Origin: Candidatus Roizmanbacteria bacterium
Lineage (GTDB): Bacteria > Patescibacteriota > Microgenomatia > UBA1406 > GWC2-37-13
DNA: 64,000 bases
Assembly: GCA_012798265.1 (NCBI GenBank)
Contig: JAAZNM010000001.1
Location: forward strand, 186,001 to 250,000
Reading direction: 5' to 3'
Shown piece after piece: positions 37,029 through 40,799 of this stretch. The notes below the pieces were generated by a model that saw only the letters and a list, made by a program, of their open reading frames with translations, ran no database searches and had not been told where the DNA came from. Position 1 is the first letter of the stretch; every line of letters starts with the position of its first letter. Made by a program: the position numbers and the translations under genes.

Positions 37029-37778
37029 ATGTTTGACAAAGCCGGAAGAAAAAAACCAAAAAAATATTCTAAAGACAGAATCTTACTTGATCACCAATCG
37101 AAACAGATTGAAACAATCAATGAGATTGAGAACAAGATAAACTCCAATAACCCCTTAGGCTTCAGTACCGTAGCTCCGGTAGCCGATTACGTCGATGACT
37201 CCCGTATCTGCCTGACCAGCGTCCATCTTCCCGACAGCTCGTTATTGTCGCAGGTAAACCGGATCTTGATCGATCCGCTCAAAAAAATCGCTCCCGGGTT
37301 ACATTATTATCCGCCCCAATCTCTCCATCTGACCATAAAAAATATAAGAGTCATCAACGATCCCCCTAATTTCGACGATGACGATGTTGCAAAAGCCGTT
37401 GAAGTGTTTTCGAAGATTATTCCAAGACATAGACCGTTTTCCGTCTATTTTTACAGGCTGCTGCTTTTTCCGAACAACCTGGCGCTTATCGGAACCACCG
37501 ACCCGGAGCTCGATTGCATAATCGCCGATTTGGATCGGGCTTTATCAAGGCAAGGGATCCCGGATGACAAGAAGTATATAAACTCGAAATATTTTTTTTG
37601 CAATATGACTCTGGCCAGGTTTAATGAGCGGCCGTCGGAAGCCCTTATAAATCAGGTGAAAAAACTTTCGGATGCCATCGTTGTCAATTTCAAACCTTAT
37701 CTGGTCGATTCGGTAACTTTATTAAGTTGTAACGCGGTCTTTGAAAAACGCCGGATAAGAGGCAGGTGGCCGTTATAA
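37029..37778 (+). CDS. 2H-phosphoesterase/2'-5' RNA ligase-like protein, second His lost
   Basis: 249 aa from ATG 37029 (a TTG at 36996 is the alternative). CLTSVHLPDSSLLSQVN followed by YYPPQSLHLTIKN carries the first HxTx motif (HLTI) of the 2H superfamily; the second is NMTLARF, in which the usual His is Asn. The first 50 residues are basic and probably disordered. 2H proteins act on cyclic phosphates or 2'-5' linkages; with one His missing, catalysis is doubtful. Ends 6 bp inside the convergent SAM hydrolase gene. Confidence 0.68.
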   Translation: MFDKAGRKKPKKYSKDRILLDHQSKQIETINEIENKINSNNPLGFSTVAPVADYVDDSRICLTSVHLPDSSLLSQVNRILIDPLKKIAPGLHYYPPQSLHLTIKNIRVINDPPNFDDDDVAKAVEVFSKIIPRHRPFSVYFYRLLLFPNNLALIGTTDPELDCIIADLDRALSRQGIPDDKKYINSKYFFCNMTLARFNERPSEALINQVKKLSDAIVVNFKPYLVDSVTLLSCNAVFEKRRIRGRWPL

Positions 37779-38525
37779 CTCCTTTATTTTCAATATCTCA
37801 CCCGTCTGAACGGCGTATTTTTCAGCGGCGCTGCCGAGATTGACGGCAAGTTCCAATGTCTCGCTGCTTCCCAAGAGAGCCAGAGGTTTACCCTCGCTTA
37901 CCTCGGAAAAGGTCTTGACCACCGGGATTTTAACGGTCTTTCCCTTAAGACGGAAAAGCAGTTGTCTCCCGACCAATAGTTTTTTGTCCCACTGGATTTT
38001 AACGTTGCCGTAGTTGTCGATATGGACCACCTGTCCGGGTCGGAGAGAGGTGGAAACCAGTTCGGACAACGCCAGGGGTTTTGATCTGAAGTTCTTGGGA
38101 TGTTTTCCCTGGGCCAGATATACTGCCACTTTAATAAAGACGTCCCGACCGTGAAAAGTGCTTGAAACATAGTCGCTTATATGCGACTCCTGGATACGCC
38201 AAGCCTTAACTATGCCTTCGCTTACGGCGCTCGGATAAAGTACTCCGTTGTTTGGACCGACAAACCAGCTTCTTTTTGACCTAATGATGACACCCGCCCG
38301 ATCGCTGCCGACTCCCGGATCGATAACGCCAACATGCACCGAACCTTCGGGAGTGAAACGGGTTAGAGTCATTATTTGGAACGCTCCTTCGACAACCGAG
38401 AAGTTGGATACGTCATGGTTTTCGATCAAAGGGCCGTTATGATTTAAGGAAGCAATAATTGCCCGCAGTTGCGCCGCGGCAAAACTGTCTCCGAAATCCG
38501 TGGTTACGGTAATCAATTTTTTCAT
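37773..38525 (-). CDS. S-adenosylmethionine hydrolase (DUF62/SAM hydroxide adenosyltransferase)
   Basis: 250 aa. ITVTTDFGDSFA (Asp10) opens the N-terminal domain; the conserved Asp-Arg-His triad is Asp69 (VIDPGVG), Arg76 and His125 (FHGRDVF), nearly the positions known for the archaeal enzyme PH0463 (D68, R75, H127). PNNG replaces the usual PDNG. The C-terminal domain has VHIDNYGNVKIQW. The family splits SAM to adenosine and L-methionine with hydroxide. It follows a Met-codon leader and terminator (38538-38620), suggesting induction when Met-tRNA is short. Not a halogenase: the chloride-loop insertion is absent. Confidence 0.9.
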   Translation of the reverse strand: MKKLITVTTDFGDSFAAAQLRAIIASLNHNGPLIENHDVSNFSVVEGAFQIMTLTRFTPEGSVHVGVIDPGVGSDRAGVIIRSKRSWFVGPNNGVLYPSAVSEGIVKAWRIQESHISDYVSSTFHGRDVFIKVAVYLAQGKHPKNFRSKPLALSELVSTSLRPGQVVHIDNYGNVKIQWDKKLLVGRQLLFRLKGKTVKIPVVKTFSEVSEGKPLALLGSSETLELAVNLGSAAEKYAVQTGEILKIKEL

Positions 38526-38537
38526 TTTGGATCAATT

Positions 38538-38563
38538 AAAAAAACCTCCTTGCGGAGGTTTTA
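38538..38563 (-). terminator. Rho-independent terminator within the leader
   Basis: On the minus strand AAACCTCC-GCAA-GGAGGTTT followed by TTTTT: an 8-bp stem with a tetraloop and a U-tract, ending 13 nt before the SAM hydrolase ATG. The position before a gene rather than after one points to attenuation. Confidence 0.85.
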
Positions 38564-38584
38564 ACTTTGAACATCAAACCTCCG

Positions 38585-38611
38585 CTATCCTGCGCGCATG
38601 ACCATCATCAT
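38585..38611 (-). CDS. Methionine-rich leader peptide (8 aa)
   Basis: Encodes MMMVMRAG and a TAG stop. Four of the first five codons are ATG, which is hard to explain by chance between two mutually complementary blocks. It starts 17 nt after the stop of the upstream membrane-protein gene and has no Shine-Dalgarno; the base stretch before it (AAACCTCC) is anti-SD-like. The peptide itself probably has no function beyond sensing Met-tRNA charging. Confidence 0.7.
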   Translation of the reverse strand: MMMVMRAG

Positions 38612-38627
38612 GGAGGTTTGAATAAGT

Positions 38628-40799
38628 TTACTCATGTGCTTTAATAATACCATATTTTTCTAAAAGTTGTGCAAGATGATGTACCGGTGAGTAATATACC
38701 TCAAGTCGGCCCGGCTTCCCGACCACAAAAGATAAACCCACCGCAGTTTTTGCGTAGGTTAAATACTGGTTGTCCAACTTTACCAAAAAACCTTCGGGAT
38801 TGATGTTGAGGTCGACCCGCCGTCCCGTATCCTCTTTTTTTACGGTAAATACCGTCTTGTTGGGATCCTCATATACAGGCTCCAGGCGTCGATAGCCGCC
38901 ATCAGCTTCAACAAAAGCATAGATCGGTCGGGCGTCTTTTTTTTCAGTCAAAACATTGACGTTTTTTTTGACGTATCTTACCGAAAGCTCTTGCCAACGC
39001 CGATCCGACCAGGTGACCCGGGAAAGTTCAATGGTATTTATGCTCGAACCTTTTTCGCTCTGGGCAAAATACGGATTTTGTTTGATGATCTCGGCATACT
39101 CCCGCATATAATTGTCTGACGGGTTTTTAAAATAATCGGCGATTCTTTTGGGGACAAAGGTATTATATCCCTGAACCGATTTGATCCGATAAACGCTGGT
39201 CCACGATGGCAAGATAAAAGAAATGTAACCGTCAAACAGACCAAGCGTCTTTTTTTCCCTGTCGTCTATGAAGGTTTTGCTTTTGGCAAAAGGGGGCTGT
39301 TGGAAGTAAACGTTAAAAACGTAGTTGACGAAACTCACGTAAGGAGTTACCTCAAGCGCCGACTGGTAACGATAGTTGACCAAATCCATATTCCCGAAAG
39401 AAACCTTAGGGACTATCCTGCCGGCCGGAACATAATAGTTGTAGCCTGTGTTTATCAGTGTTCCTTCGATAAGCACAACTGCAAAAATGACTACCCAAAC
39501 CGTTCTCTTTTTCAAAAAACCCGCCGACAGAATTCCTGCCGGAATCAGCATGGCAAAAACCAAACTTTTGGCGATCAACCTGCCGATTGCCAATACGGTG
39601 AGTCTATCGAAAAATAACGACGGCGGATTTTTTTTGACAATCTTATAGATCGACGAGAACATGCCGTAAAAATATCCGCTTGAGAAAAAAATAATGCCGG
39701 CGGCTAACAACAAAAAGATCAGTAAAAAAACCAACCTGGCTTTTCCGTTTGAAAGATTTTTGGTCAACAACCGGCCGATCTCTTTTTCGCGCTCGGCGAT
39801 TATTGTTAGGCCGACGATGTGAAATAAAATAAACACCTGGCCGGCTCCCCTGAAAAACGGCGGTTTGATCAAACCTAAAGCCGATATGAGCAAAAGAGCG
39901 AGGACCGATAACTTGGCTTTGGAAATTTTTTTGCCGATAACCAAAAAGGCCAAAAACACCGTGAAAAAAAGCGATACCGGAACTACGTTTGTAAAACCGG
40001 CGTTCCATTTTGATCCGCTGACTACCTCGCCGAAAAAAAACGGAAATGCCAGTTCGATCATCTGAAGCGCTTTTATCGGGCCGGTATCGGTCGAGACCTT
40101 GTCTACATAAAATCTAGTTGAAGAAAAGATAAGCGGCAACGACATGATAAAATACCAAGAAGTCAAAATCCCCAGAACAAAAAAATACCGCAGGATCGTC
40201 TTTAACGATTGCCGGTAAAAAACCAAACAGATGATAAAACCAAGGATACAACCGTAAAATACATACTGTATATGCCCGGACAAAATCAACGATACGCCGA
40301 TTATGTAAGGAAACAGTTTGTTTTTTTTCTTACCAAAAAAAGACAATGAATAGAAAAACAGCCCGTAATGGCTAACCGGCAACAACATCGTCGGGTTACC
40401 CATCCGGATAAAAAAACCGCTGCCGGACAGAAACAATATTATCGTCAGCAAAAAAGCGAATCTGTCGGTTCTGGCGAATTTTCTGAAAAATAAGAAAAAA
40501 CCCGTCAAGAAAACAAAGGCCGTTGATCCGCTCCATAAAGCATAAGAAAAAGGGTAGGGAAGCAGGAAAAAAACATTGAAGGGATGGAAGTTGCCCAACC
40601 CTATGTCAAACAAAAACGGCACACCGGCAAAGATATACGGATTAAACCAAGGAACAACTCCCTTGGTAAGCCAAAAACCGAAAAATATCTTAAGCGGCAA
40701 AAAAAGCATTATTACGTCGAGGGATAGATTGACGTAAAAAAAGAAAAAAACAGCAATCGCCAGGGAGATGAAAAAAAATACGTTTAGATATTTTTTCAT
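38628..40799 (-). CDS. YfhO-like large membrane protein
   Basis: 723 aa. About 12-13 helices between 5 and 450, then an extracytoplasmic domain of about 230 residues and a final weak hydrophobic stretch. WFNPYIFAGVPFLFDIGLGNFHP (in part) is the YfhO signature of an acidic, Pro-rich loop, and FFIRMGNPTMLLPVSHYGLFFYSLSFF follows the family. YfhO relatives glycosylate lipoteichoic acid or other surface polymers from lipid-linked sugars. 4 nt downstream of another GT39-like gene, so co-transcribed. The SAM hydrolase leader begins 8 nt after its stop. Confidence 0.8.
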   Translation of the reverse strand: MKKYLNVFFFISLAIAVFFFFYVNLSLDVIMLFLPLKIFFGFWLTKGVVPWFNPYIFAGVPFLFDIGLGNFHPFNVFFLLPYPFSYALWSGSTAFVFLTGFFLFFRKFARTDRFAFLLTIILFLSGSGFFIRMGNPTMLLPVSHYGLFFYSLSFFGKKKNKLFPYIIGVSLILSGHIQYVFYGCILGFIICLVFYRQSLKTILRYFFVLGILTSWYFIMSLPLIFSSTRFYVDKVSTDTGPIKALQMIELAFPFFFGEVVSGSKWNAGFTNVVPVSLFFTVFLAFLVIGKKISKAKLSVLALLLISALGLIKPPFFRGAGQVFILFHIVGLTIIAEREKEIGRLLTKNLSNGKARLVFLLIFLLLAAGIIFFSSGYFYGMFSSIYKIVKKNPPSLFFDRLTVLAIGRLIAKSLVFAMLIPAGILSAGFLKKRTVWVVIFAVVLIEGTLINTGYNYYVPAGRIVPKVSFGNMDLVNYRYQSALEVTPYVSFVNYVFNVYFQQPPFAKSKTFIDDREKKTLGLFDGYISFILPSWTSVYRIKSVQGYNTFVPKRIADYFKNPSDNYMREYAEIIKQNPYFAQSEKGSSINTIELSRVTWSDRRWQELSVRYVKKNVNVLTEKKDARPIYAFVEADGGYRRLEPVYEDPNKTVFTVKKEDTGRRVDLNINPEGFLVKLDNQYLTYAKTAVGLSFVVGKPGRLEVYYSPVHHLAQLLEKYGIIKAHE

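Follow-up and report, generated by a model that had tools for sequence, protein, structure and literature searches.

In the 64,000-nucleotide stretch of DNA analyzed here (the window), the gene for a SAM hydroxide adenosyltransferase (DUF62/SAM_HAT) is very probably controlled by a ribosome-mediated transcription attenuator that senses a shortage of charged Met-tRNA. As read from its sequence, the element is of the trp type in all features open to testing, with the 1:2 helix, which is not universal, as the one exception.

Architecture of the leader element

All features of the element lie on the minus strand. A promoter scan gives a -10 box, TATTAT (38644-38649), which with its preceding TGG is an extended -10, and a weak -35 hexamer, TGCACA (38668-38673). 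The leader ATG begins 8 nt past the -10 box and opens a reading frame of 16 codons, MSKLIQTSMMMVMRAG-stop (38585-38635), which contains four non-start Met codons and overlaps the final codons of the upstream gene for a 723-aa membrane protein (38628-40799). The initial annotation had described an 8-codon frame, MMMVMRAG; its Met run is real, and it is the second half of the longer frame, the start of which moves upstream to 38635. Judging by the promoter spacing, the transcript on which the leader is translated is probably leaderless or nearly so.

Direct reading of the sequence places the four complementary blocks and the U-tract where they had been annotated. Block 1, CAAACCTCC (38612-38620), can pair with block 2 as a protector helix. 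Block 2, GCGGAGGTTTG (core GCGGAGGTTT(G); 38575-38585), which the leader stop codon adjoins or touches, would form the 5' arm of an antiterminator. It is followed by block 3, AAAACCTCCGC (AAAACCTCC(GC); 38552-38562), common to antiterminator and terminator, by block 4, GGAGGTTTT (38541-38549), the 3' arm of the terminator, and by the U-tract of the intrinsic terminator, seven U that overlap the end of block 4 (38538-38544). The whole element, from the -10 box to the U-tract, measures only about 110 nt and is filled by leader and hairpins. The regulated gene, encoding 250 aa, lies downstream at 37773-38525.

The span 38538-38620 folds at -31.4 kcal/mol, compared with a shuffle mean of -18 (z -4.5; 0/200 shuffles), with the 2:3 helix at -17.2 and the 3:4 helix at -12.7 kcal/mol. 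When the block-2 segment is shuffled, an equally stable 2:3 helix arises in 0/1000 trials. A scan of both strands of the own genome (953 kb) for the leader plan yields four distinct candidates. The window element ranks first among them and is the only one with four identical residues in five codons, and the identical scan of the reversed genome yields one candidate, which argues that the element is not a product of chance.

These features suggest the following course of events. Transcription would start a few bases ahead of the leader ATG, and a ribosome would begin MSKLIQTSMMMVMRAG behind the polymerase. With ample Met-tRNA, the ribosome would reach the stop codon and cover block 2, so that blocks 3 and 4 would pair and transcription would end. 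With scarce Met-tRNA, it would stall at a Met codon with block 2 just past its front edge; block 2 would then pair with block 3, no terminator would form, and the SAM hydrolase gene would be transcribed. The methionine that the enzyme is predicted to release, along with adenosine, would relieve the shortage, and in six relatives the same transcript would probably also yield methionyl-tRNA synthetase.

Conservation among SAM_HAT homologues

Searching 373 genomes of the class at the protein level (E below 1e-20), we found eight close homologues, namely the own gene and seven others at 52-59% identity, distributed over eight genera and four families. Because they were collected by protein search, counts among them are unbiased with respect to leaders. 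A short Met-rich reading frame lies between a -10 box and a terminator in all eight. Beside MSKLIQTSMMMVMRAG, the leaders are MTIQSSVMMDMMLAS, MKQTLKTSTMAMVAV, MISQTSVMMDMMNAS, MKLGVYMMAMDSA, MNVNIVAMSMMMTC (with a GTG start), MDKNVVAMGMMMTC and MNKFVTMMQMTSV. Met occupies codon -4 from the stop in 8/8 and codon -7 in 7/8; beyond the Met codons and the register in which they lie, the peptides differ in sequence, and the genes upstream of the element differ among the eight. In all eight class homologues, as well as in locus L104, the leader start follows 6-9 nt after the end of a -10-like hexamer, and in one distant SAM_HAT case the -10 box is 23 nt off the leader frame. Two distant SAM_HAT genes of another class of the phylum (~30% identity) also have Met leaders, MKLLLSLLMQMMMHLVRGYCRV and MQISFAKSEQTNMMMSMMMLSQRRFEFVA, with terminators.

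The initial annotation had proposed a Met-codon leader-peptide attenuator in front of SAM hydrolase and had made its case depend on conservation in relatives. The proposal is supported by the retention of Met codons and of paired blocks in 8/8 close homologues and by their recurrence in the two distant SAM_HAT genes. Other SAM_HAT genes of the phylum (L003, L004, L005, L007, L102, L103 and L112-L114) have upstream reading frames with at most one Met per seven codons, indicating that the leader is a trait of some family members. A search of viral contigs returned no relatives. In a protein-profile scan of genome contigs, the best 80 matches are SAM_HATs of archaea and other bacteria (29-38% identity), none of them from CPR; the plan is convincingly present in none of their upstream regions, the nearest being MIFNDMMMLTV in L028.

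Competing helices and ribosome position

The alternative between 2:3 and 3:4 pairing is the conserved part of the structure. Computed before block 4 is made, the 2:3 antiterminator is more stable than the 3:4 terminator in 10/10 leaders (equilibrium energies under standard parameters), and, depending on the leader, 0 to 4% of shuffles of the block-2 segment form a 2:3 helix as stable as the natural one. Blocks 2, 3 and 4 co-vary as triples, for example ATA/GCG/CGC. Specifically, position 1 of the triples is GCG or CGC, position 2 is GCG or CGC, position 3 is ATA, CGC or GCG, and position 4 is GCG or ATA; among six representatives, only 2/720 permutations of partners pair equally well. Inspection by eye shows a clear 1:2 helix for the window, L014 and L015 and no clear one for L017-L019. 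Hence, of the annotated scheme in which 1:2 and 3:4 exclude 2:3, the opposition of 2:3 and 3:4 holds throughout, whereas the 1:2 helix is evident in the own genome and not in every relative.

Spacing ties these helices to the position of a translating ribosome. Block 2 starts 2-4 nt past the first base of the stop codon in 8/8 close homologues, and therefore a terminating ribosome must cover it. Measured from the first base of the final Met codon, it starts 11-15 nt downstream in 10/10 leaders, which by ribosome footprints is about the front edge of a ribosome holding that codon in the A site. The distance from stop codon to the end of the U-tract is 47-51 nt. When a ribosome is modelled at the stop codon, pairing of the terminator arm reaches at least 0.97 in every one of the 10 leaders; when it is modelled at the Met codons, each of the 10 has at least one such codon at which 2:3 either is the minimum-energy fold or competes strongly.

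A GTG recurs 14-19 nt past the leader stop, in the spacer between blocks 2 and 3, in many leaders (for example GGAGGTTTTTTATTGTG in L013). It may mark a site at which the polymerase pauses, allowing the ribosome to close the gap.

The downstream enzyme and its genomic context

The 250-aa protein matches Pfam SAM_HAT_N (3.9e-39) and SAM_HAT_C (3.3e-19). Its nearest PDB relative is PH0463 (7.4e-36), with which the VIDPGVG-R and FHGRD motifs align, and residues D69, R76 and H125 are invariant across the eight homologues and aligned with PH0463. An Asp-Arg-His triad separates DUF62 hydrolases from halogenases (PMC10491745). Domains and triad together predict the reaction SAM + water -> methionine + adenosine, in agreement with the annotated enzyme that frees methionine from SAM.

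In 6/8 homologues the gene order is leader, SAM_HAT, a cupin or VOC protein or nothing, and then methionyl-tRNA synthetase (metG). The leader precedes SAM_HAT without an adjacent metG in the window, L014, L104 and L115, and the metG genes in these four genomes have no Met leader. From a set of hand-picked non-carrier genomes it had seemed that metG bears a Met leader only behind SAM_HAT; this was overturned when the covariance model described below found Met leaders at metG elsewhere. The SAM synthetase gene metK is absent from the own genome (99% complete) and from seven of the other nine carriers, a frequency (8/10) that does not differ significantly from that in controls (20/30). From the absence of metK we infer that SAM would come from outside the cell and that its cleavage would give net methionine, metK being missing from two thirds of the controls as well. 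Carriers G133 and G1003 encode metK, and there SAM hydrolysis could be a futile cycle.

The biological function of DUF62 has been termed not obvious, and an alternative role proposed for the family is removal of the (R,S)-SAM epimer, which StDUF62 prefers (PMC10491745). This alternative makes it less certain that the cell gains from producing the enzyme when Met is scarce. The attenuator could accordingly be real while the task of the SAM hydrolase is to clear damaged (R,S)-SAM or to bring SAM down, its Met leader being inherited from a metG operon. The preference of StDUF62 favors such a role, as does the name (R)-S-adenosyl-L-methionine hydrolase carried by a PDB relative, and the shared operon of SAM_HAT and metG in 6/8 homologues would have made carry-over of the leader possible. 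Inheritance fits poorly with the four loci in which the leader accompanies SAM_HAT rather than metG, and SAM removal fits poorly with the 8/10 carriers that lack metK, in which cleavage of outside SAM would yield net methionine. We regard this reading as a serious possibility that is nonetheless unlikely, and favor a methionine-supplying enzyme under Met-tRNA control.

Further SAM_HAT-like proteins were seen in these genomes. A second, divergent paralogue with an ADW/SDW N-terminus (C5:120263-120571 in the own genome, G000, and L003-L011) has ten family members including that of the own genome, and no Met leader wherever its upstream region was examined. Met leaders do precede another divergent SAM_HAT-like protein in L178 (709-1500, minus strand; followed by metG) and L279 (732-1499, minus strand; P0001). 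In this protein the C-terminal domain PF20257 is retained, at 29.6 bits in L178 and with a weak match in L279, and the FHGRD motif is missing; the protein may represent a new branch of the SAM_HAT family.

Cognate leaders for other amino acids

We built a covariance model from the eight leaders, using an N-padded in-register alignment because MAFFT alignments set the start codons out of register. Being built on Met leaders, the model favors ATG runs, and the link between Met leaders and SAM_HAT rests on the protein search instead. Its counts across the class are lower bounds, as at most about ten candidates per genome were scored. Downstream genes were assigned partly by NCBIfam and partly by recognizing the N-terminus by eye (metG, thrS, hisS). 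Run over the class, the model ranks its eight source leaders first. The recurrence that the initial annotation had suggested looking for with such a model, before SAM hydrolase or methionine genes, is found before SAM_HAT and, in other genomes, before metG (at least 11 genomes of the class). The matches L202, L205 and L211 are not clean cognate leaders, so a match to the model alone is no proof of an attenuator.

Leaders for other amino acids recur in the same way (these leaders in other genomes of the class lie among loci L166-L226). Thr leaders precede thrS in at least 12 cases, one via an intervening gene. Another Thr leader lies before ilvA, followed by what is likely thrS, and another before an epimerase/aminotransferase pair that may serve threonine breakdown. 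Model matches also include His leaders before hisS (at least five), Phe leaders before pheS (at least two), an Ile leader before ileS, Ile/Val leaders before ilvB (at least three), Leu, Tyr and Lys leaders before leuS, tyrS and lysS, and Cys leaders before cysteine synthase and cystathionine synthase/lyase. In other classes, MRKTYMTALHHHMGH precedes a hisS-like gene and MTHANSINMMMQSPS a SAM_HAT-like gene. The 36 synthetase-linked leaders hold 129 cognate residues, against 51 expected by label shuffling (0/20,000); without the Met leaders, the values are 93 and 45 (0/20,000).

The own genome holds further candidates. MSNFGLVTKKFYFYFYPTKRGEIF (contig C5, leader start 161917, minus strand; L242) has competing helices and a terminator, lies upstream of genes for a PfkB kinase, DAHP synthase and 3-dehydroquinate synthase, and is likely a Phe/Tyr attenuator of the aromatic pathway. 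The Ile/Leu/Val-rich MKNLVLSVIGILLINPLKGGRR (C8, leader start 107980, minus strand; L227, L271), upstream of a 596-aa protein without assigned function and an ArgE/DapE-like peptidase, is a possible branched-chain leader. The fourth candidate of the genome scan is weak.

Three loci elsewhere have unusual features. In L167 (1500-3076) a Met leader, MIMITSMMMKMNSV, precedes three small proteins. Pfam matches neither the first nor the second of them, and NCBIfam neither the first nor the third; the three genes are candidates for a methionine-related function. In L209 (79-1863, minus strand) a 595-aa protein, in which an AlaXM-like editing domain is joined to PheS, lies behind the Phe leader MKSVNTFAFFFTS. 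In L280 (1500-1610), from a genome of another class, the leader MKYTTRTNNNNNNPA contains a run of six Asn codons.

The match between leader codons and downstream genes bears on what the window element senses. Arrest peptides that respond to small molecules are known, and SAM is the substrate of the enzyme downstream, as would suit a sensor of the nascent chain or of a ligand (SAM or Met in the ribosome exit tunnel) instead of Met-tRNA scarcity. However, only the Met codons and their register are conserved in the peptide, and leaders of the same plan for Thr, His, Phe and other amino acids match the synthetase downstream, which fits sensing of tRNA charging and makes a ligand sensor improbable.

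We consider it more improbable still that the element is the ordinary intrinsic terminator of the 723-aa gene, with a Met-rich reading frame arising by chance and the 1:2 and 2:3 helices as by-products of a CCTCC/GGAGG repeat. Such a terminator would be at home between two genes of the same strand, and comparable CCTCC-GGAGG terminators are common in the class; yet 8/8 homologues, with differing genes upstream, share the Met leader, its spacing and the triple covariation, the genome-wide scan leaves the element as one of only four, and the leaders of other synthetases hold their own cognate codons. Although SAM riboswitches and T-boxes govern methionine genes in other phyla, control of this gene by one of them, with the short reading frame incidental, can practically be dismissed, as an Rfam scan of the window returned two tRNAs only and no SAM riboswitch or T-box, and leader and hairpins already occupy the ~110 nt from -10 box to U-tract.

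With Met-tRNA sensing as the preferred reading, the window element would belong to a wider system of leader-peptide attenuators in CPR; the phylum is assigned to Patescibacteria/CPR on the basis of genome sizes and of a member whose genes contain in-frame TGA codons. We think it somewhat probable that tRNA charging is sensed class-wide by compact leaderless attenuators, each carrying codons for a single amino acid ahead of the matching synthetase or pathway gene, and that the SAM hydrolase is a starvation enzyme, mining SAM (probably imported) for methionine in cells unable to make SAM. Since cognate leaders exist for many amino acids, these genomes become readable for what each cell senses.

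Comparison with known systems

Gene regulation in CPR is almost unexplored (PMC11665869), and a search of 5.39 million open papers returned nothing relevant on leader-peptide attenuation or riboswitches in CPR/Patescibacteria. Leader peptides with other amino-acid specificities are discussed for Proteobacteria, Actinobacteria and Firmicutes in a broad attenuator survey (PMC2965389), and a comparative study of methionine operons in Actinobacteria reports no conserved RNA structures upstream (PMC1262725). We found no description of methionine-dependent control of a DUF62 gene in the open literature. The regulated protein shares family, Pfam domains and Asp-Arg-His positions with PH0463, SaDUF62 and StDUF62, and what DUF62 SAM hydrolases do in the cell has yet to be settled (PMC10491745). 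A Met attenuator, often governing the enzyme jointly with methionyl-tRNA synthetase, would give DUF62 a direct and testable role in methionine supply.

The classical leader-peptide attenuators are those of E. coli trp, his, thr, leu and pheST (Vitreschak et al. 2004, cited in PMC8079986). Like them, the window element has a short reading frame with regulatory codons, a stop codon beside the antiterminator arm, an arm shared by both hairpins and a cognate gene downstream; unlike them, it would sense methionine, targets a SAM hydrolase, has its leader frame at or near the transcript start, measures ~110 nt and belongs to CPR. In the accessible text of PMC8079986, metL of S. lividans (MSTTSDRTPATEATTTPGARCMCRRMCAF), upstream of metNIQ, is likewise a leaderless leader peptide with Met codons ahead of a methionine gene set, and it differs in its scattered Met codons, in lacking a clear terminator or comparative support, and in its importer target. 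Among the open papers searched, this weakly supported case is the only other Met leader found. The leuS and trpS attenuators of Streptomyces (PMC1262725, PMC8079986) are also leader-peptide attenuators, several of them leaderless, before aminoacyl-tRNA synthetase genes, and they differ in phylum and in amino acid. Compared with these systems, what is new here is the sensing of methionine with a SAM hydrolase as target, the compact leaderless form in CPR, and the tie to an enzyme of unsettled role.
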